A DNA stretch of 39,316 nt, from positions 1-39,316 of the forward strand of contig JAFYYN010000161.1 in assembly GCA_017557525.1 (NCBI GenBank). The letters are read 5' to 3'. Shown one piece after another: positions 1 through 20,875 of the stretch (positions are counted from its first letter, which is position 1; each line of letters opens with the position of its first letter). A program made the position numbers and the translations under genes. The DNA comes from Lachnospiraceae bacterium (lineage in GTDB: Bacteria; Bacillota; Clostridia; Lachnospirales; Lachnospiraceae). The notes below the pieces were generated by a model that was not told where the DNA came from, made no database searches, and worked only from the letters and a program-made list of their open reading frames with translations.

Positions 1-198
1 ATGTACAAATTCCGTTTCTGCCAGGTATTCTTCTTCACTTCTGTCACCGAGTGCCGAAATCCTTAAAACATATTCCTTAACTTCATTTTTGCTGCAGACA
101 TAAACAAGATTTCTCCCTCCGTCATGTCCTGCAACCTGGTTTAATATATATCCTTCTAAATAATATAATTTTACTGCTTTATCTATAATATTATTCAT
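1..198 (-). CDS. Phosphotransferase, APH/choline-kinase-like (N-terminal part only)
   Basis: This gene runs off the left edge, and only its first 66 codons are visible. The ATG at 198-196 has the ribosome site AAGGTGAG just upstream and lies 23 nt after the stop of the ABC-F gene, so the two are probably cotranscribed. The visible part has a short N-terminal helix, then GGRNLVYVC and EYVLRIS. This resembles the glycine-rich strand-turn-strand and the first beta strands of the aminoglycoside phosphotransferase/choline kinase fold, where the R in VLRIS replaces the usual ATP-binding lysine region. The catalytic HGDLH-type loop would lie outside the window, so neither substrate nor activity can be judged. 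Its place behind an ABC-F ATPase suggests a second antibiotic-resistance or small-molecule kinase function, but that is inference. Confidence 0.55.
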   Translation of the reverse strand, partial: MNNIIDKAVKLYYLEGYILNQVAGHDGGRNLVYVCSKNEVKEYVLRISALGDRSEEEYLAETEFVH

Positions 199-221
199 TC
201 CACATCTCACCTTTCACACGC

Positions 222-1775
222 TCAGCCTTCCTCATTGACACATTTAAGGCCCTCCGGAGTCAATCGGTATGTTTTATCGCAGACTTCGGAAAGGTATTTT
301 CTGTCGTGTGATACACTGATGATTGCTCCCGGGAAATCCTTCAGCATCTTCCGGATCACAGGTCCTGATAACGGTGAAAAGTTTCTGGTCGGCTCATCAA
401 GTATCAGTACATTTGCTCCCGACATACTAAGCTTAAGTAATAGTACCTTTGCCTTCTGTCCGCCCGAAAGCTCACGTATCGGGTGCTCCATCTCATCTGC
501 CGTATACTTTAGGGCTCCAAGATATGTACGTATCCCTGTTCTTTCCTCTTTTTCTCCCGAAGTATCAAGGAAGTCAACCGGTGTCATATCAAGATCAAGT
601 AATACCTCATAGTTCTGAGGCATGTACTCTGCCCTTATGTCATCTCTTGATAAAAGTTCTTTCACTATCTTTGTTATAAATGTTGACTTTCCGCAGCCGT
701 TGGTACCAATAATTCCTACCTTTTCAGAACCGCGGATCTTAAGCTCAATGCCTTTTGCAAGTGTTCTGCTACCATCCAAAGTATTTAAATCCTCGGCCTC
801 ATACTGAATTACCCACTTGCCCGAAGGTATCCTACTGTTTTCGTCACCAAGCTTAAAGAAGATGGCCTCCTCCTGTTCAGGCATTTCGGTCATATCTTCA
901 TCTTCACGCTCGAAACGCTTTTCCATGGCCTTGACATTCTTCATCTTTTTCTTAAGCAGTCTGCCGATGGCATCACGGTCTGCATGAGTAATATTATCGA
1001 GCCGGGCACCTACACTCTGTTCCATACGGCGAAGCTTTTCATCCCTTATCTTCTTTTCACGCCTCTCGCCCAGTGCTATCTGCTCCTGCTTTTCAAAAGC
1101 ATTCATTCTTTCTTCCACGTAGGTCCTGTAAGGCACATTTGCTACCGTATGTCTGCACTTGGTCTTTCGTCTTATCTGCTCGAAATGTATCACACGGTTT
1201 GCAGTATGTTCTATAAGAGTTTCATCATGTGATATAAACAAAACAGCATGCTTCCAACCGTTGATAAAGCTCTCCATCCATTCCAGGGTTTCGATATCGA
1301 TATCATTTGACGGCTCGTCAAGCAGCAGGATGGTCGGGTTCTCTATAAGGATCCTCATCATCTGTGCCTTAACTCTCTCACCTCCCGAAAGAGTCCGCAT
1401 CTCCTGCTCTCTGTAGAAAAACTCCTGCTCCACATGAAAATCTTTTGCAAGCTTCGACAGTTCTCTGGGAGTTTTGTCAAAAAAGTCAGGACACTCCATA
1501 AAATACTCATTTACGGTCTTTGACTTTTCGTTTTCAGCCAGTTCCTGTGGCAGGTATCCTAGTTTTTCTCCGGTTATTACCTTTTCGCCGGAGTAATCCA
1601 TATAATCCTCGACAAGCTCCGGATCAAATATCCACTTCATAAGAGTGGACTTACCGTTTCCCTCCTCACCTATCATTACGGCTCTGTCACCGTCATTTAA
1701 TACCAGTGAGAAGTTTTCCAATATAGTTCTTAAATCTTTCTTATGTGTTAATGTAACATTTTTAATCTGGAACAT
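222..1775 (-). CDS. ABC-F family ATPase (ribosome-protection / antibiotic-resistance type)
   Basis: This is a soluble protein with two ATPase cassettes and no membrane segments, the layout of ABC-F translation factors that bind the ribosomal E site. The first cassette has Walker A GEEGNGKST (about residue 36), signature LSGGE (129) and Walker B ILLLDEPSND (149). A charged, Arg/Lys-rich interdomain linker of about 100 residues follows. The second cassette has GTNGCGKST (about 357), LSGGQ and LILDEPTRN, then an SHD switch. The start chosen is the ATG at 1775, 7 nt after AAGGGGG. A longer reading from a TTG at 1793 would overlap that ribosome site. The linker length and the leader (promoter, small ORF, terminator) are typical of resistance ABC-F proteins of the Vga/Lsa/VmlR kind rather than housekeeping EttA or Uup. 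Which drug is involved cannot be read from the sequence. Confidence 0.85.
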   Translation of the reverse strand: MFQIKNVTLTHKKDLRTILENFSLVLNDGDRAVMIGEEGNGKSTLMKWIFDPELVEDYMDYSGEKVITGEKLGYLPQELAENEKSKTVNEYFMECPDFFDKTPRELSKLAKDFHVEQEFFYREQEMRTLSGGERVKAQMMRILIENPTILLLDEPSNDIDIETLEWMESFINGWKHAVLFISHDETLIEHTANRVIHFEQIRRKTKCRHTVANVPYRTYVEERMNAFEKQEQIALGERREKKIRDEKLRRMEQSVGARLDNITHADRDAIGRLLKKKMKNVKAMEKRFEREDEDMTEMPEQEEAIFFKLGDENSRIPSGKWVIQYEAEDLNTLDGSRTLAKGIELKIRGSEKVGIIGTNGCGKSTFITKIVKELLSRDDIRAEYMPQNYEVLLDLDMTPVDFLDTSGEKEERTGIRTYLGALKYTADEMEHPIRELSGGQKAKVLLLKLSMSGANVLILDEPTRNFSPLSGPVIRKMLKDFPGAIISVSHDRKYLSEVCDKTYRLTPEGLKCVNEEG

Positions 1776-1798
1776 ACACATTCCCCCTTCCAATCACA

Positions 1799-1819
1799 AG
1801 AACACCGTATCGGTGCTCT
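1799..1819 (-). other. Hairpin just upstream of the ABC-F ribosome-binding site
   Basis: A 9-bp stem with a 3-nt loop (AGAGCACCG, ATA, CGGTGTTCT on the transcript; one G-U pair) ends about 8 nt before the GGAAGGGGG ribosome site. It could influence initiation or be part of an alternative fold of the leader. It has no run of T and is not a terminator. Confidence 0.4.
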
Positions 1820-1836
1820 ATACTCCCGGGGTATCT

Positions 1837-1868
1837 TTTCAATCAGAGAACCGTCCCTCTGATTGAAA
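1837..1868. repeat. REP-like palindrome (GGGACGGTTCTC type)
   Basis: A 12-bp perfect inverted repeat (TTTCAATCAGAG and its complement) encloses an 8-nt loop containing ACCGTCC. From memory, palindromes with GAGAACCGTCCC/GGGACGGTTCTC cores are scattered repeats in many bacteria, often near IS200-like (RAYT) transposases. None is in this window. It lies inside the ABC-F leader, between the terminator and the gene. A second palindrome of a similar class is near 39170. Confidence 0.6.
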
Positions 1869-1880
1869 GGCATAAAAATA

Positions 1881-1906
1881 GCCCTGATACCTTCACGTAT
1901 CAGGGC
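1881..1906 (-). terminator. Intrinsic terminator in the ABC-F leader (probable attenuator)
   Basis: On the transcript, a 10-bp perfect stem GCCCTGATAC/GTATCAGGGC with a 6-nt loop is followed by TATTTTTAT. It lies about 80 nt after the leader ORF stop and about 105 nt before the ABC-F start, so it can end transcription before the gene. It belongs to the gene's own leader, because the promoter is further upstream at 2143-2171. No convincing antiterminator arm was found by eye. Confidence 0.75.
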
Positions 1907-1981
1907 ATATAAAGCTTGTTATCATAGTTGCAGTACCATTATGCATTATGGCATAAATAGACATACTCCAAATAATCCGCT

Positions 1982-2062
1982 TCAGTTTGCACTTCTCCGG
2001 GAGGCATTATCTTTTGCATTTTCAATTGTGTTTACAAATCTGGTCTTAATAATAATTGACAT
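1982..2062 (-). CDS. Leader peptide upstream of the ABC-F gene, 26 residues
   Basis: A short ORF begins ATG TCA ATT ATT ATT AAG with the strong ribosome site AAGGAGG 7 nt upstream, and ends in TGA at 1982. Its product starts MSIIIKTRF and ends ASRRSAN. It sits about 75 nt after a consensus promoter and before the terminator at 1881-1906. Known resistance ABC-F genes (vmlR, vga, lsa types) and erm genes are often induced when an antibiotic stalls a ribosome on such a peptide and favours an antiterminator fold. The RRSAN tail or the isoleucine run could be a stall point. This role is inferred from layout. The good ribosome site and placement are seen directly. Confidence 0.65.
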   Translation of the reverse strand: MSIIIKTRFVNTIENAKDNASRRSAN

Positions 2063-2142
2063 TGCTGCCTCCTTATCTTGCCTTGCGGCATAATCATATT
2101 TCTATTTGCTTCTTGTCAGCAAAATCCTACTGACATTTTCAG

Positions 2143-2171
2143 ATTATACCCTTTACCCTTTTAATTGTCAA
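2143..2171 (-). promoter_or_regulatory. Consensus sigma-A promoter for the ABC-F unit
   Basis: On the minus strand TTGACA (2171-2166) and TATAAT (2148-2143) are separated by exactly 17 nt, so both boxes match consensus fully. Transcription should start near 2136, giving a leader of about 360 nt before the ABC-F gene. So strong a promoter fits a gene controlled by premature termination rather than by a repressor. The preceding fliB-like stop lies about 50 nt upstream, with only a weak 7-bp hairpin (2203-2219) between. Confidence 0.85.
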
Positions 2172-2220
2172 GTATTTTTTTAAATCGTTTCACTAATGAT
2201 AAATCCACACTATGCGGATA

Positions 2221-3231
2221 CTATATTTTTTCAAAACTTATATATGCATTATAATAAAATGCAGTATGTTCTATAAGATGGTAAACTGCCGCTATCAAAT
2301 CAGTCAGTTTCTCCATTGCGGGACTGTTTAACGTGTTTACCGTACAGATAAGCCGTAATATTTCGTACTGTACGATCAGCCCGAAAAATGACTCAGCTTT
2401 ATCAATCCTCTTATCACAATATGGGAAAGACGCGAAGATAAGATTGTTTACCATCAGATTTTCGAAATATATTTCCCACTTTGGGAAATTTTTCTTAAAA
2501 ACCTCAAAATCCGAATCGTATAGTTTTTCCGCGTCTCCCTCTCCGTTACCGTATCTTGCAAAAGCAGCTTCTGCGTAACTTTTTAATGTATCAGATGTTT
2601 CTAACAGCGTGCCCAATATATCCAGTATGTTTTTTAGAGATATCCCTTTAAAGTTTTTAACACCTAAAAGGCTGCCTATAGAAATAATCCTGTCGTTTAA
2701 GCTCTGCCCTCTGTCCTGCATTATGGACAGGGAGTCTTTTAAAATTGTCTCTGCGTCCGGTGGCAGGCTTTCTGTAATTTCAGGCTTTACCCCATCGTCT
2801 GCTTCCATATAGCAAGTATCTATTTTTTCTTTTAAAAGTAGGATTTCAACTACCGCTTCACAGCTTGCAGATAATACGGCTTTAAAAATACCGTTTGTCT
2901 GCTTAAGACTCCTAGGATATACCCTGCAGGTTTCGGGTATCATAGGCTCCCCGCACTCCTTCTGCAGCATGCATAACCCGTCATCCCCAAGCATCCTGCA
3001 CTGTCCTCGCCAATCAGGCACTATATATGCAAATTTATCAGATGTGCCCAGCTCTATCTTTACTAATGCACTTTCAATTTTTTCATGAAGCATTTCCGAA
3101 CAGTCCAGCCCTATCAGCCTGAAATACTCTTTCTCCGTAACGGCTATTTTCCAGCCTTTACAGCAGGCATTTCTGCACTTGCCGCATTTACAGGAAAATA
3201 ATCTAAAATAATCCGGCACAAGCCATTTCAT
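2221..3231 (-). CDS. fliB: FliB-like lysine N-methylase family protein (cysteine cluster)
   Basis: The product has 336 residues. The N-terminus MKWLVPDYFRLFSCKCGKC continues with RNACCKGWKI, so cysteines lie at about 14, 16, 19, 23 and 24. Further Cys-containing segments (GQCRMLG, GLCMLQ, ETCRVYPR at about 95-125) complete the pattern of the FliB flagellin lysine-N-methylase family. The cysteines probably hold an iron-sulfur cluster. The long C-terminal half is helical and variable. The start is 4 nt after the stop of the histidine kinase, with ribosome site AAGAAGG inside the kinase's last codons, so translation is coupled. No flagellar gene is nearby. A substrate other than flagellin, or a link to the transporter/two-component system, is possible but unproven. 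Confidence 0.7.
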   Translation of the reverse strand: MKWLVPDYFRLFSCKCGKCRNACCKGWKIAVTEKEYFRLIGLDCSEMLHEKIESALVKIELGTSDKFAYIVPDWRGQCRMLGDDGLCMLQKECGEPMIPETCRVYPRSLKQTNGIFKAVLSASCEAVVEILLLKEKIDTCYMEADDGVKPEITESLPPDAETILKDSLSIMQDRGQSLNDRIISIGSLLGVKNFKGISLKNILDILGTLLETSDTLKSYAEAAFARYGNGEGDAEKLYDSDFEVFKKNFPKWEIYFENLMVNNLIFASFPYCDKRIDKAESFFGLIVQYEILRLICTVNTLNSPAMEKLTDLIAAVYHLIEHTAFYYNAYISFEKI

Positions 3232-3235
3232 TGTT

Positions 3236-4363
3236 TCACACCTTCTTGACCAGCAATTCTACCACAAATCCATTATCGTTATAATACTCAAAACCGCCAC
3301 CCTGGCGCTCCATATAATTTTTTACCAGATAGAGACCAAGTCCGTAGCCTGTCCGTTCTTTTGAATTGTTACCCCTGTAATATTTCTCGGTAATAAGCGG
3401 GATATCCGAGTCCGGTACACCGGGACCGGAATCCCGGACAATTATCTTTATATATTTGACCGTATTTCCGCTATCCGGATGATTTTCCTCAGTTTCAAGG
3501 AAACTGACATGTATATCCGTCCCCGCATACTTATAGGAATTTCCGACTATATTGTCAACCACCTGCTCCATACGGAGCCTGTCCATGTACACAAGGCATT
3601 CAGGTATATGACCATCAAGGATGATATTCCCATAATCCTTAAGTCCTTTAAAGTACTGCTCTATCAATAACGATGAGTATTCATCAACATTCACCGTAAT
3701 CTCATCCATGTCATCAAGGGTAGCCTTGAAAACACTCTGGATCAGCTGGTTAATGACTTCTGATTTATTTGAAATGATATTCAGTTTTTCTTCAAGATCT
3801 TCCGGATTGTAAGTCTTTTTCATCGCAAGCTGTGCGGTTAAGACTTCACAGGTCGCCTGAATGGTCGCAATAGGTGTCTTAAGGTCATGACTTAATTCTG
3901 CAACCATCTCTCTTTTTGCGTTTTCTGCCTCTATCTCTCTTTGTTTTGAGTCTTTCAATGCCACACGCATTAAGTCAAAGCTTTCAGCAAAATTAATAAA
4001 GCCATTATTCTTGGTTATGGGGAGCGGCACCTCAAGATTCCCTTTTGAGATCTCCGCGGCAAAATCCTGAAGCTCCAAAACAGGCTTTAACTCCCTTCGG
4101 TATATCAGATACAGTAATATATAGCCAAGCACGAATATTATCAGCCACAGTATACAGAAATAAACAAAAATCCTGTTTTTAATTTCTTCCGAACTGCTGT
4201 TCATTCCTTCCCAAATACGTTTATAAATTATCAGTTCTTCATCCGTATATGAAGCAGGAGCCTTTATCTTAAGATCAAGCTTTTGGAAAAGCAGGAAAGA
4301 TATCGGAAGAACCATCAGCATAAATACGGTAAAAAGAATGACAAGTATCCTATATTTCTTCAT
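3236..4363 (-). CDS. Sensor histidine kinase (HAMP, HisKA, HATPase)
   Basis: The protein has 375 residues. Two membrane helices (about 5-27 and 65-88) enclose a small extracytoplasmic loop of about 37 residues, too small for a large ligand domain. A HAMP-like linker follows, then the H box SHDLKTP with phosphoacceptor His159, N box DNIVGNSYKYAG, G1 DSGPGVP and G2 GYGLGLYLVKNY. The ATG lies within the end of the response-regulator gene (14-nt overlap), so the pair is coupled. The small sensor loop beside an FtsX-type ABC transporter recalls transporter-dependent sensing of peptide antibiotics or envelope stress, as in Bce/Vnc-type systems. That role is inferred. Confidence 0.88.
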   Translation of the reverse strand: MKKYRILVILFTVFMLMVLPISFLLFQKLDLKIKAPASYTDEELIIYKRIWEGMNSSSEEIKNRIFVYFCILWLIIFVLGYILLYLIYRRELKPVLELQDFAAEISKGNLEVPLPITKNNGFINFAESFDLMRVALKDSKQREIEAENAKREMVAELSHDLKTPIATIQATCEVLTAQLAMKKTYNPEDLEEKLNIISNKSEVINQLIQSVFKATLDDMDEITVNVDEYSSLLIEQYFKGLKDYGNIILDGHIPECLVYMDRLRMEQVVDNIVGNSYKYAGTDIHVSFLETEENHPDSGNTVKYIKIIVRDSGPGVPDSDIPLITEKYYRGNNSKERTGYGLGLYLVKNYMERQGGGFEYYNDNGFVVELLVKKV

Positions 4364-5090
4364 CCTTACCCTTCTCTAACTCCAGAATATATCCTGTTCC
4401 CCAGACTGTTTTGATAAATTCCGGGGCATTTGGATCCTTCTCGATCTTCTCTCTAAGCTTTCTTATATGTACATTAAGGGTCCCGTCTGTAAAGAATGCA
4501 TCTCCCCAAACTTCATCAAACAGTACTTCCTTAGTAACTATGGTGTTTTTATGATCATAAAGGCACTTTAGTAATGCAAACTCCTTTGCCTTTAATGCAA
4601 TCCTTTTCCCGTTAAGTATTACCGACATAGTTGCTTCTTCCAAACGGAATCCCAATCTGCTTTCTTTTTCATCTGTTAAGGCATTGCTCGCGTTTTCTGC
4701 CGGATCTGCAGAAATATTGCTGAATTCCCTGATCCTCTTAAGATTAACCTTTACCTTTGCCAAAAGCACAGATAAGCTGTACGGCTTTTTCACATAATCA
4801 TCCCCGCCTATACTTAAGGCAACAAGTACATCATCATCACTTTGGCGTGCACTGATAAAAAAGATGGGCAGTCTGTAGGTTTCTCTCAGCTTTTTACATA
4901 CCTCAAAGCCTGACCCGTCTCCAAGATTAATATCCAGCAAAACTATATCCGCAGTATTGTTTTCAAAAAAAGCATAACAAGACACAGCACTGTTTACGTA
5001 CTGTGTCTTTACATCAAACATATTAAAATATTCTGCCGTCATCCTGGCAAGCTCTTCTTCATCATCAACTATCAGACAATTATAATGCAT
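4350..5090 (-). CDS. OmpR-family response regulator
   Basis: The product has 246 residues. The receiver domain has the acidic pair D9-D10-E11, phosphoacceptor D53 (LLDINLGDGSGFE) and the conserved Lys in YVKKPYS near 102. A linker of about 25 residues leads to a C-terminal winged helix (KEFALLKCLYDHKNTIVTKEVLFDEVWG, then TLNVHIRKLREKIE and TVWGTGY). It overlaps the kinase gene and has its own promoter at 5175-5203. The likely target is the transporter operon upstream. The ribosome site before the ATG at 5090 is weak, with no clear AGGAGG, so expression may be low. Confidence 0.9.
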   Translation of the reverse strand: MHYNCLIVDDEEELARMTAEYFNMFDVKTQYVNSAVSCYAFFENNTADIVLLDINLGDGSGFEVCKKLRETYRLPIFFISARQSDDDVLVALSIGGDDYVKKPYSLSVLLAKVKVNLKRIREFSNISADPAENASNALTDEKESRLGFRLEEATMSVILNGKRIALKAKEFALLKCLYDHKNTIVTKEVLFDEVWGDAFFTDGTLNVHIRKLREKIEKDPNAPEFIKTVWGTGYILELEKGKDEEI

Positions 5091-5174
5091 ATTTCATTTA
5101 CTGCTGCAGGCATATTTATAACGGTTTGCGAAGCCTGCACCACAGACCGTAAACTATTCTTGTGTAACAATAGC

Positions 5175-5203
5175 ATTATACTAGATTTTTATGATATTTA
5201 CAA
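5175..5203 (-). promoter_or_regulatory. Promoter for the response regulator-kinase-fliB genes
   Basis: On the minus strand TTGTAA (5203-5198), a 17-nt spacer and a perfect TATAAT (5180-5175) lie in the 119-nt gap between the permease stop and the regulator start. It would let the two-component genes be made independently of the transporter. The leader after it contains a GCAGGC/GCCTGC inverted repeat of unknown meaning. Confidence 0.65.
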
Positions 5204-5209
5204 TGTTTT

Positions 5210-7615
5210 TTATTCTTCCGTTATCATTTCTACCGGTATGAGCTTTCTTACCTTAAGCCCCGTAAGGAAAGAAGTAACTACTGCCACTGTAATAATACCG
5301 AGAACTGTAATAGTAATTGCAGACCATGAGATTGCAAACTCAGCTTCCTTCATTGCAAAGAGAGAAAATGCCGCTCTTGTAAAAAGCCTTCCCGCCCCTT
5401 CCGCAAGTATTGATCCTATAAGGGCACCGACTGTAATTGCAGGTATATTGGTAAGCATTATCTGTGACATAAGTCCCAGTGAAGTCTGCCCCAAAGCCTT
5501 GCTGATACCCATGCTTTTCCACTCACGGTTAAGCTTTGCCCTGATAACGAGTGACTCGACAAAAATTACTATCAGGGTTGTTAATACAAGTATTACTGCG
5601 CAGATTGCATTCATTGAATAATTTACAGTTTCCACCGTACTGTCCATAACCTTTTTAAGATTATTGCAGGTAAGAGTCAAACCATTTTCGTCTCCGAACT
5701 TTTCAATTTCCGACTTAAGCATATCATAGGTAAAGCCGTCTTCTCCAATGATCTTATAAGCATAGATATTTGAAAGATCGCCGGGCAAAATCTTTTCTGC
5801 GCCGGAAATGAGCATATATACTGTCCGTCCCATCCTTTCAACCCTCTGGTTGATACCGGTAACAATGAAACTGGCTTTTTTATCCGCATATTCAATTTCA
5901 ACAACATCGCCAAGCTTAATTCCAAGGTCGATCGATACGCCGTTTGTGATCATTATCTCATTTTCTTTTTCAGGATATCTTCCATCTATCATGTATGTAT
6001 TAACGGTATTGTTAAAATCATCAACTGCATAGGTATATACCATATCCTTCTTGCCATTAAAGATCACCGTAGGTTCATATCCGATTTCCACAAGAATATT
6101 CTTAACTCCTGTCAGTTCTCCTAATTCTCCGGATATATCGCCGCCAATCCTGTTTCTGACCTCCAGATCAGCCATCTCAAAACCCATAAGCCGAAGCATT
6201 GCTTCGGGATCTTCCCCATAGTTTTCCTTCATTCCAAAACCGGCAAGCGTTGCAATCGTAAGTACCATGCTTATAAAAATCATAAGAAGGTTTCTTCCAA
6301 GTCCGCCAAAGGTTTCCTTAAGTGACATAACAACCGGTACAGGTAATGCGGTATTCTCAAAAGGAAACAGATTTTTCTTGTAATTATGGGTATTTATCCC
6401 ACCTCTTAAGGCATCCAAAACGCTAATTTTCTTATAAGTCCTGCTGATCAGTCTCGATACCAAAAATACCACTGTGACAAGACCTAAAACAGTACATACC
6501 GCTACAGGCAGATTTATTGGCTGATTCCAGGAAAGTCCCAATACTGAACTAATTACATTTCCAAAAGAACCAATTGTAAGTGTTGCTATAACAACCCCTA
6601 AAGCAGATCCAACTGCCGCAACTATTGAAATCTCAAATGTAAGTGCCCATCTCAGCTCTTTAACAGTATATCCTGCAGCTTCCATGATACCTGTGTTTTT
6701 CATGTTCCTCTGTATAAAGTTTTTGATACTGAAGGAAATGATAATAAGGGCAACCGTCATTATGATGCAGGCAAAAAGTAATATTATTGCCATTGCAACC
6801 ATAGGGAGAAACATTGATCCGCCCTTCATCATATCCCAGTTTATAAGAAAATATACTGTATAATTTTTGTCTGGTTCAAGAGCACTGTATTTTGAAATGC
6901 TTGATTTATAAACTTCCGCCACTTCACTTTCAAGATCGTCAGTCGTGTAGTCTTCAGCAAAATTACTTACATCTGCAACTCCTTTATGTGCATTATATCT
7001 TTTTGCGGTTTCAGGATGGTCACTTACCATCTTATTAAGCATTTCCTTATGCATTCCGCAGTAATATGTTGTGATGTTCATAGTACTGCAAAAATAGGGA
7101 TCTTCAAGATATCCTGCTACATTAAACCTGTAAATGTCATCACCCATCTTTATATCTATCTCATCACCAATATCGAATGATGTTTTCTGGTTAAAAGGAA
7201 GAAGGATATCATTCACGTTATGACCAAATTCAGGAATAGTTACGTTCATCAGTCTCTTCTCCTGATCAAAGTCCTCAACCATAAATGAAAAAGATGAATA
7301 TTCGTCTTCGTTCTGCTTTTTATATTCAGTTACAAAATAAACAAGCGGAGTTACTTCATAATCTGTTATCAGGTTGTTTTCCGTTAATGCTTTTTTAGCC
7401 GATTCTGTTTCAGCAACAGTATCCTGGTTAAAAAGTATTACATGCGCTCCGTTTACTTCCTTAAATCTGTCCTCCAGCACATTACCCAGCCCTACAAGTG
7501 CCGAAGCGCAGTCAAATATTAGCAATGCAGAGATACAGGTAAGGATAAGGAAGGTGATCATATCCGAACGCTGTTTTTTCATATTGTTTTTAGCTATATA
7601 TATTAGTTTATACAT
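5210..7615 (-). CDS. ABC transporter permease, FtsX/MacB type (801 residues)
   Basis: A cytoplasmic N-terminus (MYKLIYIAKNNMKKQRSD) precedes TM1 (about 20-42). A large extracytoplasmic domain (about 45-265) follows, then three membrane helices (about 270-300, 325-355, 375-400). A second, similar half begins at about 440 with one helix, then an extracytoplasmic domain to about 665, and ends with three helices. This duplicated FtsX fold with two external domains is typical of transporters that export or strip peptides, lipids or antibiotics rather than of nutrient importers. The ribosome site AGAGAGGA precedes the ATG. The ATPase gene lies upstream, separated by 140 nt of hairpin repeats. Confidence 0.85.
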   Translation of the reverse strand: MYKLIYIAKNNMKKQRSDMITFLILTCISALLIFDCASALVGLGNVLEDRFKEVNGAHVILFNQDTVAETESAKKALTENNLITDYEVTPLVYFVTEYKKQNEDEYSSFSFMVEDFDQEKRLMNVTIPEFGHNVNDILLPFNQKTSFDIGDEIDIKMGDDIYRFNVAGYLEDPYFCSTMNITTYYCGMHKEMLNKMVSDHPETAKRYNAHKGVADVSNFAEDYTTDDLESEVAEVYKSSISKYSALEPDKNYTVYFLINWDMMKGGSMFLPMVAMAIILLFACIIMTVALIIISFSIKNFIQRNMKNTGIMEAAGYTVKELRWALTFEISIVAAVGSALGVVIATLTIGSFGNVISSVLGLSWNQPINLPVAVCTVLGLVTVVFLVSRLISRTYKKISVLDALRGGINTHNYKKNLFPFENTALPVPVVMSLKETFGGLGRNLLMIFISMVLTIATLAGFGMKENYGEDPEAMLRLMGFEMADLEVRNRIGGDISGELGELTGVKNILVEIGYEPTVIFNGKKDMVYTYAVDDFNNTVNTYMIDGRYPEKENEIMITNGVSIDLGIKLGDVVEIEYADKKASFIVTGINQRVERMGRTVYMLISGAEKILPGDLSNIYAYKIIGEDGFTYDMLKSEIEKFGDENGLTLTCNNLKKVMDSTVETVNYSMNAICAVILVLTTLIVIFVESLVIRAKLNREWKSMGISKALGQTSLGLMSQIMLTNIPAITVGALIGSILAEGAGRLFTRAAFSLFAMKEAEFAISWSAITITVLGIITVAVVTSFLTGLKVRKLIPVEMITEE

Positions 7616-7634
7616 TTTAGTCCTCTCTTATTCT

Positions 7635-7665
7635 ATACTCCATCGCTTCGCGACGGAGCCATGTC
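7635..7665. repeat. Hairpin-forming direct repeat, copy 1
   Basis: A 31-nt unit, identical to that at 7698-7728. Inside it a 9-bp stem (CTCCATCGC pairing with GCGACGGAG, one G-U) closes a 3-nt loop. It lies between the ATPase and permease genes of one transporter. Confidence 0.8.
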
Positions 7666-7697
7666 GTAGGCTTATTTGGTACACTTTGAGTATTTAG

Positions 7698-7728
7698 ATA
7701 CTCCATCGCTTCGCGACGGAGCCATGTC
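7698..7728. repeat. Hairpin-forming direct repeat, copy 2
   Basis: This is the second exact copy of the 31-nt unit at 7635-7665, 32 nt from the first. The spacing resembles a repeat-spacer-repeat, but there are only two copies and no cas genes. Short GC-rich hairpins of this kind are common interspersed elements. Confidence 0.8.
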
Positions 7729-7752
7729 ACACGCTCCTTCGGAGCATGTGAC
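7726..7752 (-). other. 12-bp hairpin directly after the ATPase stop codon
   Basis: Arms GTCACATGCTCC and GGAGCGTGTGAC (one G-U pair) with a GAA loop start 3 nt after the ATPase stop. No T-run follows, so it is more likely an mRNA-stabilising or processing element than an intrinsic terminator. It overlaps the edge of repeat copy 2 by 3 nt. Confidence 0.6.
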
Positions 7753-7755
7753 GAA

Positions 7756-8562
7756 TTACCAACCCTGTACCTGCAGGAATTCCTTTAACTTAGCGTGTCT
7801 TTCCTTCGCCTTCTCTATGTTCGGATTCTCCTCATCCTTATAATCTCCCATATATGGTCCAAGATCACATTCGGCTGAAATAACACCATCCGCCAGATAT
7901 ATCACTCTGTTGCCTCTTTCTGCCGCCTTTATGGTATGTGTTACCATTACTATGCTCTGACCGTCCTTATTCAGATCCGTCAAAATATCCAGCACATTTA
8001 TTGTATTCTGAGAATTAAGGGCTCCTGTAGGCTCATCTGCAAACAGTACCTCAGGATCATTTATAACTCCTCTGACTACGGCAACCCTCTGCTGCTGCCC
8101 GCCTGAAAGCTGTGTCGGAAACTTCCTGTAATCTCCCTCTCCGATCTCTACTCTTCCCAAAAGCTGTTTTGCTTTAGCGGCTAAAGCCTTACGGTCCTTA
8201 CTCTTTAAAAGTCCGCTTATCATAACATTATCAAGTGCCGATAGGGTGTCATTCAGATAATTCTGCTGGAATACAAAGCCTGCATGATTACGTCTGAATA
8301 AGGCAAGCTTATCATTGCTGAACTTGGAAATCTCCAGACTGCTGTTATCCACATAATAGGTAACTGTACCGAGCGAAGGTCTGTCCATCCCTGAGAGGGA
8401 ATATAACAAAGTACTCTTTCCTGATCCCGAGTTACCCATTACTACAGTAAAATCTCCTTTATAGATGCTTAAGTTAAGATTTTTAAGTACGTGCTGCTGA
8501 ACCGATTCGTTTGAAAAAGTCTTACACAAATCCTTCGCTGTTAATATTGCTTCTTTACCCAT
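7756..8562 (-). CDS. ABC transporter ATP-binding protein (MacB/LolD type)
   Basis: The product has 268 residues and a single nucleotide-binding domain. Walker A is GNSGSGKST (43-51), the Q loop FVFQQN (97), the signature LSGGQQQR (152) and Walker B VLFADEPTGALNS (172), with the switch His in VTHTIKAA. The DEPTGALNS string is characteristic of the MacB/LolD/Bce group that pairs with FtsX-like permeases, matching the permease downstream. The last 35 residues are a charged extension. The ribosome site AAAAAGGAG precedes the ATG. Together with the permease and the two-component system it forms a likely antimicrobial-peptide or envelope-stress response unit. Confidence 0.92.
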   Translation of the reverse strand: MGKEAILTAKDLCKTFSNESVQQHVLKNLNLSIYKGDFTVVMGNSGSGKSTLLYSLSGMDRPSLGTVTYYVDNSSLEISKFSNDKLALFRRNHAGFVFQQNYLNDTLSALDNVMISGLLKSKDRKALAAKAKQLLGRVEIGEGDYRKFPTQLSGGQQQRVAVVRGVINDPEVLFADEPTGALNSQNTINVLDILTDLNKDGQSIVMVTHTIKAAERGNRVIYLADGVISAECDLGPYMGDYKDEENPNIEKAKERHAKLKEFLQVQGW

Positions 8563-8611
8563 ATCTGTATTACTCCTTTTTGTTTATCGGAAACTTTTTA
8601 TCCACCAAAAA

Positions 8612-8662
8612 ACTTCCGTGCTCATTTGTTGATCTTAATATACAACAAATATTCACGGAAGT
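8612..8662 (-). terminator. Long imperfect hairpin with T-run between pfkB-like gene and ABC ATPase
   Basis: On the minus strand arms ACTTCCGTG/CACGGAAGT (9 bp) enclose a second stem ATTTGTTG/CAACAAAT and an 11-nt loop. TTTTTTGG follows directly. It fits an intrinsic terminator for the five-gene unit upstream. No good promoter is visible in the 50 nt between it and the ATPase start. The hairpin may therefore also act as an attenuator or operator for the transporter operon, or the promoter may lie within it (TATATT near 8640). This could not be settled by eye. Confidence 0.65.
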
Positions 8663-8710
8663 CTTAACCTGTCTCTTCTCTATTCCTTAATTATTTCTTA
8701 AATGATAAAC

Positions 8711-9610
8711 CTATTTTATTAATTGCTTAACCTCTTCCAGTCTTGGAGGATTTAAAGGCAGAGGAAATCTTGATATCGCTATGGCAGAGCATGCACTTGC
8801 AAATCTTACAAGCTCATCATCCTTCATACCGTGCAGTATACCATATGTACAGCCGGCCTTAAAGGTATCTCCGGCACCTAAAGTACTTTTAACCTCCACA
8901 GAGAACGGCTTCATCCTATGGATTTCTTCTCCCTTTCTGGCATAAAGCATATCTCCGCCACCCTGGGTGATAATGGTGAGTCCGTCCGTTTCCGCCAGCA
9001 TAAGCTTCATTATCTCTTCGGGCTGCATGCCGGCATAGTGCTGGGAGGTACATTCCTTTGATACTACATTTACAGCTGCATTACGGTGTAACTCCGAGTC
9101 GTGCCTGCAGTCAATGGTTACATACGGGATATCAAGCTTCTTACAGATTTTTGCTGCGAGCATAGTTTCCTCCCCAAAAAACGGATCTATTGCTGCTGCC
9201 TTACATCCCGCGATATCCTCCTCTTTAGGTATGCTCCACCATCTCTTTCCAGACGAGAACAGGGTCTGAAATCTGCCCATGGGTGATCGCACAAGACCCG
9301 CGATCACAACATAATCCATCACACCCGGGTCATCTTCCCAAAAGTGAACTGCCGAAAGGTCAACCTTCTTATCCTCATAAAAGCTTTTAAGCATTGGAGC
9401 CACTGCAGTACCTATCCATGTACCGTCCATCCTTACGGAAACACCCAGTGAATCTAATACTGTTGCAGCTGTACCCGTTTCGCCTCCGGGCAGGAAATAC
9501 TGGTCCTTGATCTCTGAATACTCATCCGGCTGCAGGAAGCCATCCTTCAGTAAAAATGAATGTGTTCCAAGTATCTGTCCATACAGATATACTTCCGCAT
9601 TTGTCCTCAT
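8711..9610 (-). CDS. PfkB-family carbohydrate/nucleoside kinase
   Basis: The product has 299 residues. An N-terminal strand leads to the PfkB substrate region (PGGETGTAATVLDSLG, about 41-56). Near the C-terminus the PfkB signature STLGAGDTFKAGC (about 243-255) supplies the anion hole and catalytic Asp of the ribokinase superfamily. Sequence cannot fix the sugar or nucleoside. The unusual FSSGKRWWS stretch in the middle is not a ribokinase feature. It is the last gene of the five-gene minus-strand set, 21 nt after the unknown gene, and a terminator follows. Confidence 0.82.
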   Translation of the reverse strand: MRTNAEVYLYGQILGTHSFLLKDGFLQPDEYSEIKDQYFLPGGETGTAATVLDSLGVSVRMDGTWIGTAVAPMLKSFYEDKKVDLSAVHFWEDDPGVMDYVVIAGLVRSPMGRFQTLFSSGKRWWSIPKEEDIAGCKAAAIDPFFGEETMLAAKICKKLDIPYVTIDCRHDSELHRNAAVNVVSKECTSQHYAGMQPEEIMKLMLAETDGLTIITQGGGDMLYARKGEEIHRMKPFSVEVKSTLGAGDTFKAGCTYGILHGMKDDELVRFASACSAIAISRFPLPLNPPRLEEVKQLIK

Positions 9611-9631
9611 CCCGGTTACCTCTCCTTTAAC

Positions 9632-10111
9632 CTATTTCAGGGATATCTTATATATATAATTCCTTAAGAAATTGGGATCACTTGCTCCACTCCCAAGCAT
9701 CTCATAAAGATTATCTTTCCCGGCGATAAGCTTTCCTCGGAAAAAGTTTTCAAGCTCCTTTACATGCTCTGATTTTAACCTGTTAAAGAAATCGTAGCTG
9801 TATTTGAGCTTAGTCCCCGAATATGCCAAAACCTCCACGCTGTTCCACTGTTTGGCGGCAGAGAGCAGATATTCCACACGGTAATTTTGGAAGATAAGCA
9901 TTACTGAAAGATCATTATTATTTACAGCCATGCACGCCTCTTTTACTTCCCCGTATTCAGCAAATGGGTACGTAAAGCATCTGTCCATATTGAGATCGGT
10001 ACCGTCAGGAAGACCTATAACCTCAGTATAAATGTCATCCGATTTCAGCATATCAAGATATCCCGTAAACTTAAGCGCATCCTCCGGTGCTAAAGCAAAT
10101 GTAACCTTCAT
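9632..10111 (-). CDS. Unknown protein, 159 residues
   Basis: I do not recognise a family. The product has no signal peptide or membrane segment. It looks like a mixed alpha/beta soluble protein, with hydrophobic strands (MKVTFALAP, LSVMLIFQNY, VEVLAYSG) and a helical, charged C-terminal third. The ATG follows directly after the TAG of the phosphodiesterase (ATAGATG), so the two are translationally coupled and may act together. Between a phosphodiesterase and a PfkB kinase it might be part of a nucleotide or sugar-phosphate salvage step, but nothing in its own sequence shows this. Confidence 0.8.
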   Translation of the reverse strand: MKVTFALAPEDALKFTGYLDMLKSDDIYTEVIGLPDGTDLNMDRCFTYPFAEYGEVKEACMAVNNNDLSVMLIFQNYRVEYLLSAAKQWNSVEVLAYSGTKLKYSYDFFNRLKSEHVKELENFFRGKLIAGKDNLYEMLGSGASDPNFLRNYIYKISLK

Positions 10112-10582
10112 CTATATCCTCCGTGCCTCAAACTCAAAACCGCCCTTGCCGTCAGTTTTCATGACCACATACGAAGGTGCTCCGTCTCTGGGTCTCGAAA
10201 TACTGCCGGGATTGATCACCCACCTGCCGTTTCCGTTTAACAGCTTCTGTTCATGGGTATGACCGTATAGTATAACATCGTATCCGCTGTTTACCGCATA
10301 ATTTAAGATTTCTCTGTCATCAAGACATGGTAATTTGTTTCCGTGTTCGATATGTATCAGCTTACCCTCAATATTTAAGTTCTGCACAGCAAACTCTCCG
10401 GAAAAAATATCACAGTTTCCCCTAACACCGTTTACCCTGCAGCCGAGTCTGTCGCTGATATAATCGAAATCTCCCGTACCGTCGCCGCAATGCAGTATCA
10501 GATCAAATTTACCTTCTTTTTTCTTAAGCAAATCTATATTCTCAGTACTTCCGTGAGAATCGCTGATGATCAAAATTCTCAA
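10112..10582 (-). CDS. YfcE/MJ0936-type metallophosphodiesterase
   Basis: The product has 156 residues, normal for this small calcineurin-fold family. The metal-binding motifs are in order: DSHG (8-11), GDGTGD (about 33), GNCD (about 55), HGN (about 80) and GHTHE (about 107), followed by NPGS. Family members hydrolyse phosphodiesters with Mn or similar ions, and the natural substrate is usually unknown. It lies 14 nt after the secreted-protein gene and abuts the unknown gene. A second member of the family, only moderately similar, is at 17929-18474. Confidence 0.88.
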   Translation of the reverse strand: MRILIISDSHGSTENIDLLKKKEGKFDLILHCGDGTGDFDYISDRLGCRVNGVRGNCDIFSGEFAVQNLNIEGKLIHIEHGNKLPCLDDREILNYAVNSGYDVILYGHTHEQKLLNGNGRWVINPGSISRPRDGAPSYVVMKTDGKGGFEFEARRI

Positions 10583-10596
10583 GCTTTGTCTCCTTA

Positions 10597-11499
10597 TTAA
10601 TCAAACAAACGGCGGTTTGTAACTAACGGTTCCTTAACATCTCCGAAGTCATCGGTCTGATTATCAACATAGATCCAGCCTTTAACATCCGATGACTTAA
10701 TATATGCAACAAAAGGAGCTGTCAGATCATCGGACAGCTTTACTTTCTTAACATAGAATTTCTGTCCCTTCTTTATCTCACCCTTAAATTCTGTAAGTGA
10801 AGAATCAGAGAATACCTTAATGTTGCATGCTGCCTTAAACTTACCTATCTTATTATCAGCGTAAAACTCAGGAGCAACGGTATAAACGCCTGACTTAGCC
10901 TTCTTTTCGGTAAAGCCCTTTTTCCCAAGCTTATAATCAACCTTTAACCACAGACATCCAAATGTCTGTGACCAGTAATCCACTCCCAGTGTCAGATACT
11001 TATTATTTTTCTGATCAGCCACAACATAAGAGAATGAAGAAACATTATAATCCTCACCGACAAGTGTAAGCTTTCCCTTCTTGTATCTGAAAACCTTCAT
11101 GCCGAGCAGTATCTCATTATATGCAGAATAATAACTGGCAACGATTTCCTTATAGCTGTCCGAAGGGTTTATGTCTGCTATTTCTACTTTAATATAAGCT
11201 AATGTATAAAGTACATCATGGAGACGATGCTCTTCGGGTTCATCAGGATAAGCCTCAATTACATATCCCTCGCTCCATGCCTCTTTTCCGTCAATGGAAA
11301 TCTTAAAGCTGTATTCACCATCTTCTTCATCATATGAAAATCTTATTTCAGGCTCATAATAAATGATCTCTTCCTTGCCATCACCGTTTAAGTCAGCAAT
11401 AAGTGTGTTATCACTTGCCTTTAAGCCATATGTATCTGCCAGTAAACTGAATCCTAAAACAAAAAGACAGCATAACAATAATTTTGACAGTTTTTTCAT
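10597..11499 (-). CDS. Secreted protein with FG-GAP/EF-hand-like and SH3-like parts
   Basis: The product has 300 residues. A signal peptide (KKLSKLLLCCLFVLGFSLLAD, cleavage probably after about residue 29) is followed by LIADLNGDGKEEIIYY. This is a DxNxDGxEE calcium-binding loop as in FG-GAP/VCBS repeats. A second weaker copy (IADINPSDSYKEIVASYY) occurs at about 108. The C-terminal 80 residues (NIKVFSDSSLTEFKGEIKKGQKFYV ... GWIYVD) look like an SH3b-like wall-binding fold. The protein is exported and perhaps held at the cell wall. No enzymatic motif is visible. Among cytosolic enzymes in the same operon it is an odd neighbour. Confidence 0.75.
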   Translation of the reverse strand: MKKLSKLLLCCLFVLGFSLLADTYGLKASDNTLIADLNGDGKEEIIYYEPEIRFSYDEEDGEYSFKISIDGKEAWSEGYVIEAYPDEPEEHRLHDVLYTLAYIKVEIADINPSDSYKEIVASYYSAYNEILLGMKVFRYKKGKLTLVGEDYNVSSFSYVVADQKNNKYLTLGVDYWSQTFGCLWLKVDYKLGKKGFTEKKAKSGVYTVAPEFYADNKIGKFKAACNIKVFSDSSLTEFKGEIKKGQKFYVKKVKLSDDLTAPFVAYIKSSDVKGWIYVDNQTDDFGDVKEPLVTNRRLFD

Positions 11500-11526
11500 A
11501 ATATAATACCTTGCCCTTTCTCGTTT

Positions 11527-11832
11527 TTAATCAATCACCATATCAAAGCAGCTTCTCTGCTTAACAAAAGGTCTTACCTTACCATCAGCTACCGCCACAT
11601 GATCGGGATGCACTGCGTATCCCTTTAATGCTGCCTCGTCAGTTAAAGTCGAGTCTAACATCAGGTCTCCGTTTGAGCTTGCAAGCCCCTCTGTATAAAC
11701 CCTGATCTCTAAAAGTCCGGGTACCTTTCCTTTAAGGCCCTCAAGTCCTTCCTTGATCCCTCGTTTTATTTCCTCCTTTTCCTGTAAGGAATACTCATCC
11801 TTTAAGGTCCAGACAATCACATGTTTTACCAT
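11527..11832 (-). CDS. Dabb-domain (stress-responsive alpha/beta barrel) protein
   Basis: The product has 101 residues from the chosen start. It begins MVKHVIVWTLKD, typical of the Dabb dimeric ferredoxin-like fold, and keeps the conserved PGLLEIRVY strand and the HPDHVAVADGKVRPFV segment. The start is the ATG at 11832 with AAGGAGA upstream. A longer frame beginning at 11904 would start before the predicted transcription start (-10 box at 11883-11888). It is the first gene of the five-gene minus-strand unit. Family members range from plant stress proteins to polyketide cyclases, so its function here is unknown. Confidence 0.85.
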   Translation of the reverse strand: MVKHVIVWTLKDEYSLQEKEEIKRGIKEGLEGLKGKVPGLLEIRVYTEGLASSNGDLMLDSTLTDEAALKGYAVHPDHVAVADGKVRPFVKQRSCFDMVID

Positions 11833-11882
11833 TCTTAGTCTCCTTCCCTGCATGCAATTGATTTGTCTGCATACATGTGTAT

Positions 11883-11911
11883 ATTTTAGCACATACAAAG
11901 ACACTTCTCAA
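11883..11911 (-). promoter_or_regulatory. Promoter of the Dabb-to-PfkB unit
   Basis: On the minus strand TTGAGA (11911-11906), 17 nt and TAAAAT (11888-11883). It is divergent from the promoter at 11952-11980, leaving about 40 nt between the -35 boxes where a shared regulator could bind. Confidence 0.6.
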
Positions 11912-11951
11912 TAATAATTTAACTAATATGGGGAAAACAGTGAAAAAAACA

Positions 11952-11980
11952 TTGCCATATCTTAATAAGTAGGTTAAAAT
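11952..11980 (+). promoter_or_regulatory. Promoter of the NarL-type regulator
   Basis: TTGCCA (11952-11957), 17 nt and TAAAAT (11975-11980), about 40 nt before the regulator start. The boxes each match 5 of 6 consensus bases. Confidence 0.6.
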
Positions 11981-12019
11981 AGTATTGTTAATGTTTCAGG
12001 GGTTTACAGGAGAAAAAAT

Positions 12020-20577: not shown

Positions 20578-20875
20578 AAAAACAAAACAGCTCCCGTCTT
20601 ATTAAAGACGGGAGCATAACTCACGTGATACCACTTTAATTCACCTGTACCTCGCGGCACAGATCTTAGCAACTGTCTGTCAACAGTCCACACTATAACG
20701 GGTGAACCCGTCAGAACCTTAGAACATATGCTCCTCAGCCCTGCAGCTCCGGGACCATCTTCAACTGTCTTTCTGCCATCCGCTCTCAGCAAATGCGGAC
20801 TCTCTGTATGCATTTGGGCAGCCTACTCTTCCTTTCACAGCCTTTGGATATTTTCTTTACCAGTTTGATTTTAAT
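20578..20875 (-). promoter_or_regulatory. T-box riboswitch, methionine-specific, for metG
   Basis: The leader starts about 10 nt after the -10 box at 20882-20887. It has a long stem I with AGAGAGTC, the GCTGAGAG loop and a specifier region in which GAAG is followed by ATG (20758-20756) and GGTCCC, with GGGCTGAGG closing the stem. The T-box AAAGTGGTATCACG is at 20637-20624, then the terminator hairpin at 20590-20615. The AUG specifier matches metG. When uncharged tRNA-Met binds, its acceptor end stabilises the antiterminator and lets metG be transcribed. The T-box motif departs slightly from the usual GGTACCGCG. Confidence 0.9.
20590..20615 (-). terminator. T-box terminator of metG
   Basis: A perfect 10-bp stem GCTCCCGTCT/AGACGGGAGC with a 6-nt loop is followed by TGTTTTGTTTTT on the minus strand. 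It competes with the antiterminator that contains the T-box sequence. Confidence 0.9.

Follow-up and report, generated by a model that had tools for sequence, protein, structure and literature searches.

We analysed the minus-strand leader that precedes an ABC-F ATPase gene in contig JAFYYN010000161.1 of a Lachnospiraceae bacterium (assembly GCA_017557525.1; the whole stretch of 39,316 nucleotides is called the window). Through this leader, ribosomes probably control the attenuation of ABC-F transcription, and the switch would fire mainly on ribosomes that have initiated but not elongated. As long as the start of the leader open reading frame (ORF) is unoccupied, its Shine-Dalgarno (SD) sequence would pair with an anti-SD inside the same ORF and leave the intrinsic terminator free; when a ribosome completes the ORF, the anti-SD element would be covered, the terminator would again be free, and transcription would stop. 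Under induction, a drug-bound ribosome would initiate, stall at about codons 1–4, mask the SD and free codons 19–22. The freed element would then pair with the emerging terminator apex, blocking hairpin nucleation and allowing readthrough into the ABC-F gene. The inducing drug is most likely an inhibitor of the pleuromutilin, lincosamide or streptogramin A type, drugs that halt ribosomes at the first codons; readthrough would depend on the drug, and antitermination would depend on kinetics.

The initial annotation had described an attenuator-like leader in front of a resistance-type ABC-F gene, with a perfect TTGACA-17-TATAAT promoter, a 26-codon leader ORF with AAGGAGG, a 10-bp intrinsic terminator and the gene itself, in this order. 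All of these parts are present in that order on the minus strand (Table 1). The attenuator-like reading is well supported by comparison, through the shared ORF, the shared terminator and computed pairings that exclude each other; the label of resistance gene is not established, and a further hairpin lies outside the switch, as set out below. TTGACA-N17-TATAAT has a single exact occurrence in the 39,316 bases (0.02 expected; present in 2/100 shuffles). The terminator has the most GC pairs among 13 terminator-like sites in positions 1–12000, where shuffles lead one to expect 7.3 sites.

We fetched 110 loci with a homologous gene, the window (L021) included, some of them being one genome drawn from two collections; 106 were usable after dropping L083 (without the N-terminus) and L065, L122 and L123 (too little upstream sequence). 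The window's type of leader, here called class A, was found in 22 of the 106 usable loci, window included, and 21 leaders were analysed, L068 being excluded as near-identical to L066. Among the 30 loci with at least 70% protein identity (window included), 22 have class A, six have a second type (class B) and two have neither. The absence of a conserved leader ORF from homologous loci, which the initial annotation had named as a refutation, was thus not borne out. As in leaders of the vmlR/cplR type, a conserved upstream ORF (uORF) with a SD lies between promoter and gene. The class A leader ORFs analysed have 22–26 codons, and class A relatives have an intrinsic terminator between uORF and gene, L062 being without a T-run after the stem. 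Along a class A leader, small hairpins come first, then SD and ORF, and past the stop codon a stem-loop and the terminator. A rival reading is an ordinary intergenic terminator beside a chance ORF, with constitutive partial readthrough; terminators are common between genes. However, ORF, in-frame anti-SD and terminator co-occur in relatives whose leader otherwise differs, and the perfect promoter sits between the leader ORF and the upstream gene, so we consider such a chance arrangement very improbable.

The anti-SD stands in the same reading frame in 21/21 class A leaders (ACC/GCC-UCC-UGG/CGG/UGU near the ORF end); the pattern by which the leaders were collected required CCTCC within the ORF, without a condition on frame. 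In the window, leader codons 19–22 read UGCCUCCCGG, and in many relatives the element is UACCUCCYGG. The peptide varies: nonsynonymous codons outnumber synonymous ones in 8/8 same-length peptide pairs (10 overlapping pairs were compared, 2 of them unequal in length). Since the peptide is variable and the frame of the anti-SD constant, the leader ORF appears to be maintained as an open frame, and its end appears to be conserved for its RNA sequence rather than for the peptide.

Pairing between leader SD and anti-SD is found in 95.8% of alignment cells over the 21 leaders, compared with 33.5–65.9% when the strands are slid against each other. Two of the eight pairs change on both sides, and six are invariant. 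A shuffled control reached the observed covariation score in 23/500 cases, the paired percentage in 30/500 and the number of both-sides cells in 30/500; covariation in the class A helix is thus modest.

The initial annotation had found no matching antiterminator arm. A candidate does exist in leader codons 19–22, where the strand pairs with the terminator apex and not with a whole arm. When every upstream 14-mer was scored against the terminator apex of its own leader, the anti-SD element was the best partner in 20/21 class A leaders (exception L052), the typical pairing being UACCUCCYGG with CCGGAAGGUA or CCAGNAGGUA. A classical antiterminator directed against the 5′ arm of the terminator was also sought and rejected, because the best sites were scattered and no position was common to the 21 leaders.

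We folded nascent RNA ending at the terminator apex, with or without a mask over the SD and the first eight codons. In the unmasked window leader, the element makes 6.8 of 9 expected pairs with the SD and 0.9 with the apex; with the mask in place, apex pairs rise to 7.5. Unmasked, at least four pairs to the SD form in 20/21 leaders (L061 has 3.2) and fewer than four to the apex in 21/21; masked, at least four apex pairs form in 20/21 (L055 has 0.2). The unmasked SD and masked apex behaviour occurs together in 19/21, so the mutually exclusive anti-antiterminator and antiterminator that characterize vmlR/cplR-type leaders are reproduced in silico in these 19. Shuffled 5′ arm and apex equalled the real value in 17/1260 trials. 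In the window, 2006-1998 is predicted to form eight pairs with 1897-1888, and this duplex of element and apex contains a single mismatch and a single bulge.

An ORF could also be coupled to termination by ribosome position alone, without any antiterminator, as has been proposed for tlrB of B. subtilis, in which no overlapping antiterminator was identified and the terminator is reported to be blocked by the stalled ribosome itself (PMC6851288). This is quite improbable for the window, where the leader stop lies 75 nt before the terminator stem, out of reach for a ribosome at the ORF start, and where the complementarity to the apex would be left unexplained.

To see where a stall would act on the pairing, we moved a 31-nt ribosome footprint along the ORF. 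At least four apex pairs form with P-site codons 1–3 in 19/21 leaders, with codon 4 in 5/21 (window included), with codons 5–9 in at most 1/21, with codons 10–15 in 2, 6, 9, 4, 1 and 2 of 21, respectively, and with codons 16–22 in 0/21. The peptide start is compatible with an early stall, M-x-x-R being found in 12/21 class A peptides. Short uORFs of such genes read MIN, MR[I/M], MK[L/Q] and MAGN, and are held to be likely stalled by drugs acting right after initiation (PMC10201436, PMC9226507). Together, the folding scan and the peptide start favour a stall that would occur at the first codons.

The same attenuator could instead be triggered by macrolide-type arrest on an R/K-X-R/K motif, which by eye lies within the first eight codons of 13/21 peptides (KTR, codons 6–8, in the window), and in tlrB a RYR motif stalls ribosomes with tylosin (PMC6851288). 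We regard this trigger as unlikely. A P site on the middle residue of the motif, as reported for tlrB (PMC6851288), would fall on codon 7 in the window, where the scan keeps SD and anti-SD paired and gives 0.9 of 9 apex pairs; at least four apex pairs form in 0/21 leaders at codon 7 and in 1/21 at codon 5, and 8/21 peptides are without the motif in their first eight codons. Scarce charged tRNA is a further conceivable signal, to be read at Ile or Arg codons near the start: the window leader has three consecutive Ile codons, and Arg stands at codon 4 in the 12 peptides just mentioned. Against it, the gene encodes an ABC-F ATPase and not a biosynthetic enzyme, the 21 peptides differ in their numbers of Ile and Arg, and the tested vmlR and cplR leaders respond to drugs (PMC9226507, PMC10201436); we find this signal very unlikely.

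Several observations weigh against an attenuator controlled by first-codon stalls. Some concern the collection of leaders and the choice of sites: the collecting pattern for class A included GGAGG and CCTCC, so that these motifs are present in part because they were selected for, and the apex position was chosen after viewing the sequences. The shuffles also equal the counts of helix pairs and of pair types in 375/500 and 388/500 cases, in keeping with the modest covariation between SD and anti-SD. CCUCC intrinsically favours such apexes, controls choosing the anti-SD element in 71/504 cases (class B apexes) and 74/420 (shuffled own apexes), or 14–18%. Own partners did not pair significantly better than swapped ones in class A (144/2000; 975/5000), because the element hardly varies, and the swap tests of both classes ignore relatedness.

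Other points concern single leaders and the folding itself. Apex pairing is weak in the window, at −8.0 kcal/mol against −9.3 to −13.8 kcal/mol in the 19 leaders besides L021 and L052; L052 has a better apex partner elsewhere than the anti-SD element, L055 does not respond to masking, and L061 falls below four SD pairs when unmasked. The window peptide starts MSIIIK, without Arg at codon 4. In the stall scan the footprint is an assumption, a stall at codon 12 gives apex pairing in 9/21 leaders, and stalls at codons 13–15 give 4.0–5.3 apex pairs in the window. Equilibrium folding with the whole terminator present leaves 0.0 apex pairs in 21/21, and as proof of antitermination this approach fails in all of them; nested folding cannot judge a pseudoknot. 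Because the full terminator wins at equilibrium, the switch must be kinetic, with the apex capped before the 3′ arm emerges. The search of the leader RNA for alternative structures, which the initial annotation had proposed, thus finds exclusive SD and apex pairings in nascent RNA and a terminator that prevails at equilibrium. The weakest links are the kinetic antitermination, the weaker apex pairing of the window and the putative protective role of the ABC-F protein.

The second leader class has a four-codon ORF, M-x-x-R-stop (three codons in a few), and 48 loci were assigned to it by pattern; on reading the remaining 36, we judged 15 to have a comparable short ORF with Arg as its last codon. 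The pattern demands the final Arg codon, and the presence of Arg alone is therefore no evidence. Here a conserved GAUUAUC element is the partner of the stop-codon region, and the adjacent strand pairs with the terminator apex. One of the eight pairs of the GAUUAUC helix changes on both sides, in 6/30 sequences; of the two innermost pairs, one cannot form in 2 sequences and the other in 3. Own strand and apex pair better than swapped partners, the swaps equalling them in 0/5000 cases both for 35 distinct pairs and for 34 pairs with the whole terminator. L093, L050, L102, L074 and L103, for which the automatic assignment had taken an incorrect terminator or displaced the element, were left out of the 34-pair test and kept in the 35-pair test; L049, twin of L050, was kept in the 34-pair test. 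L091 and L046 have quite different yet still complementary antiterminator and apex sequences. Class B appears to follow the same logic as class A, with strong covariation, and to that extent supports it.

Taking the two classes together, we tentatively suggest that the end of the class A leader ORF may be a three-way switch strand, which hides the SD, is covered by the finishing ribosome and caps the terminator apex when freed, and that both classes may form a family of sensors of initiated but not elongated ribosomes in Lachnospiraceae, in which the terminator is capped at its apex and no strand competes for a whole arm.

Across 295 genomes of the order, the class B model matched in at least 22, at 27 places, and a class A model matched at least 5 of 397 family genomes, all five on the same strand as, and immediately before, this ABC-F family; over the taxonomic class, the class A model matched only the own genome (1/391). 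The filters in these many-genome searches were stricter and few candidates were scored, hence 5/397 and 22/295 are lower bounds. Twenty of the 27 class B places have the motif and a long ORF matching the window ABC-F protein, 12 at 57–67% and 8 at 22–25%. Among the other seven, L156 lies next to a 57% relative, and distant ABC matches adjoin L153 and L154; L152, L157, L161 and L162 have no ABC-F match within the locus. Two of the distant class B genes were scored: one is Lsa-like, with 514.7 bits against a cut-off of 750, and is truncated at the locus end; a second passes NF000355 (418.6 against 380). Class B leaders (L057, L063, L077, L091, L046 and others) also stand before Lsa-like and Vga/Msr-like ABC-F genes, and the class B model has up to three matches in one genome.

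At gathering scores, Rfam 15 returned only a T-box leader elsewhere in the window (20601-20847, minus strand, 98.3 bits) and nothing in 18 loci of both leader classes; in 1700-2300, with expectation values (E) up to 5, it gave three snoRNA matches (E 1.2–4.1), far under gathering scores. A literature search, which did not reach subscription papers and preprints, recognised neither leader class as described. L051, with an ABC-F protein 97% identical over residues 1–475, has a clearly different class A leader, while the leader of L052 (92%) is almost that of the window; leaders may be exchanged independently of the ABC-F gene. L058 and L072 (77–82% identity) are the loci in which neither leader class was found, and L058 has GGGGACGG-type repeats there instead. 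L055 and L075 nearly share about 200 bases between terminator and ABC-F start.

The ABC-F protein has 517 residues and two ABC domains, and its translation shows the Walker and signature motifs. Against NF000355, the general ribosomal-protection model of NCBIfam, it scores 281.9 bits, below the curated cut-off of 380; the Vga, Msr and CplR models rank after NF000355, and curated cut-offs are reached by none of the best 25 of 153 NCBIfam models. The label of a resistance-type gene is therefore not established. Among proteins of solved structure, it is closest in sequence to Lmo0919, VmlR2 (8buu) and, in entry 7nhl, a lincosamide-streptogramin A protein. An AlphaFold model (mean predicted local distance difference test score 87.5) has two ABC domains and a long helical linker (helices 216–260 and 269–293), as in ARE-ABCF ribosomal protection proteins. 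In Foldseek, PoxtA, VmlR2, Sal(B) and LsaA reach template modelling (TM) scores of 0.70–0.71, and human ABCF1 also reaches 0.70; resistance factors are therefore not distinguished by their fold. The window protein is an ABC-F protein near resistance factors and is not certified as one, and protection of the ribosome by it is putative. At least two other loci in the own genome (C188, C92) exceed the NF000355 cut-off.

A further hairpin between terminator and gene, noted initially, does exist, and we rejected it as a second regulatory structure of the switch, because it is a dispersed genomic repeat and is absent from L051. It folds as 14 bp, the REP-like palindrome being TTTCAATCAGAGGGACGGTTCTCTGATTGAAA, and an 82-base query over it found at least 42 places in the own genome, itself included, the other 41 within query positions 2–39, where the hairpin lies; this count is a lower bound, 40 of 80 first-look candidates having been scored. 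L051, the closest locus by its ABC-F protein, has no hairpin at the corresponding place. The own genome has four matches to Y1 transposase (PF01797), an enzyme type associated with REP-like repeats.

The features of the locus are collected in Table 1, in which the transcript start is assumed to lie 7 nt past the −10 box. Several relatives folded alongside have a 5′ hairpin like that of the window and a counterpart of the small UGCC-GCAA-GGCA hairpin. Directly upstream of the leader promoter, positions 2221-3231 encode a protein of 336 aa that begins with a cysteine-rich stretch and matches nothing in Pfam at E 1e-5. Beyond it, positions 3236-8562 (minus strand) hold in a row a histidine kinase, a response regulator, an FtsX-type permease and an ABC ATPase (Pfam), an arrangement that resembles peptide-antibiotic detoxification modules.

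Table 1. Features of the leader and the ABC-F gene in the window
Feature	Position	Strand	Sequence or remark	Basis
Sigma-70 type promoter	2143..2171	minus	TTGACA-17-TATAAT	exact pattern match
5′ hairpin, presumed transcript start	2114..2135	minus		RNA fold
Small hairpin directly 5′ of leader SD	2079..2090	minus	UGCC-GCAA-GGCA	RNA fold
Leader SD	2066..2074	minus	AAGGAGGCA; proposed anti-antiterminator helix has GGAGGCA (2072-2066) as one strand	
Leader ORF, 26 codons	1982..2062	minus	peptide MSIIIKTRFVNTIENAKDNASRRSAN	ORF translation
Bifunctional element, leader codons 19–22	1997..2007	minus	AUGCCUCCCGG; anti-SD and proposed antiterminator strand	
Spacer containing stem-loop, leader stop to terminator	1911..1966 (limits approximate)	minus		RNA fold
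Intrinsic terminator, 10 bp	1881..1906	minus	GCCCTGATAC-GTGAAG-GTATCAGGGC then TATTTTT	
Terminator apex	1898-1888	minus	ACGUGAAGGUA; proposed antiterminator target	
Terminator U-rich tract	1874..1880	minus		sequence
Dispersed repeat hairpin (REP-like), outside the switch	1837..1868	minus		genome matches
ABC-F gene SD	1783..1791	minus	GGAAGGGGG	sequence
ABC-F ATPase, 517 aa, two ABC domains	222..1775	minus	ATG at 1775, end at 222	ORF, profile, structure comparisons

If the first-codon attenuator reading is true, these leaders offer a concrete wiring by which Lachnospiraceae of gut and rumen that are not in culture would detect inhibitors of the ribosome and only then express an ABC-F protein, and an ABC-F family below the curated cut-offs would be tied to drug-type regulation. 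RNA geometry alone would separate first-codon stalls from most later ones, and the pairing with the apex points to the loop as a site at which a terminator can be relieved. Both leader classes are without an Rfam 15 match at the thresholds used.

Among known systems, vmlR of B. subtilis is alike in having an ARE-ABCF gene, a uORF, an anti-antiterminator, an antiterminator and a terminator (PMC9226507), the window protein itself being under the ARE cut-offs. In vmlR, a ribosome that lincomycin has stalled on the uORF keeps the anti-antiterminator from forming, and the uORF is the tripeptide MIN in a bulge of that structure (PMC9226507), whereas the window ORF has 26 codons, the helix of its own SD with the anti-SD is the proposed anti-antiterminator, and the strand that switches belongs to the coding sequence close to the ORF end. 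The cplR leader of Clostridioides/Clostridium likewise places a clostridial ARE-ABCF gene under uORF-controlled attenuation of transcription and translation (PMC10201436); its uORF follows the consensus MR[I/M], and the stem of its terminator has the further effect of hiding the SD of the main gene (PMC10201436). It is closer to the four-codon class B than to class A. The tlrB (yxjB) leader of B. subtilis shares a leader peptide (9 codons in tlrB), an intrinsic terminator and a drug-stalled ribosome, but differs in its stall at a C-terminal RYR, its rRNA methylase gene, the hidden SD of the main gene and the lack of an identified antiterminator (PMC6851288). The msrD leader likewise belongs to an ABC-F gene that is regulated in response to macrolides, leader peptide and attenuation being among the terms of its report, but is described as macrolide-specific (PMC10314930). 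With 26 codons (22–26 in class A) against 3–4 in the published vmlR/cplR type, the window uORF lies outside that short-uORF subtype, and the leader is thus a variant and not a member of it: it looks like a variant of vmlR/cplR-type attenuators, set apart by its long uORF and its proposed in-ORF antiterminator.

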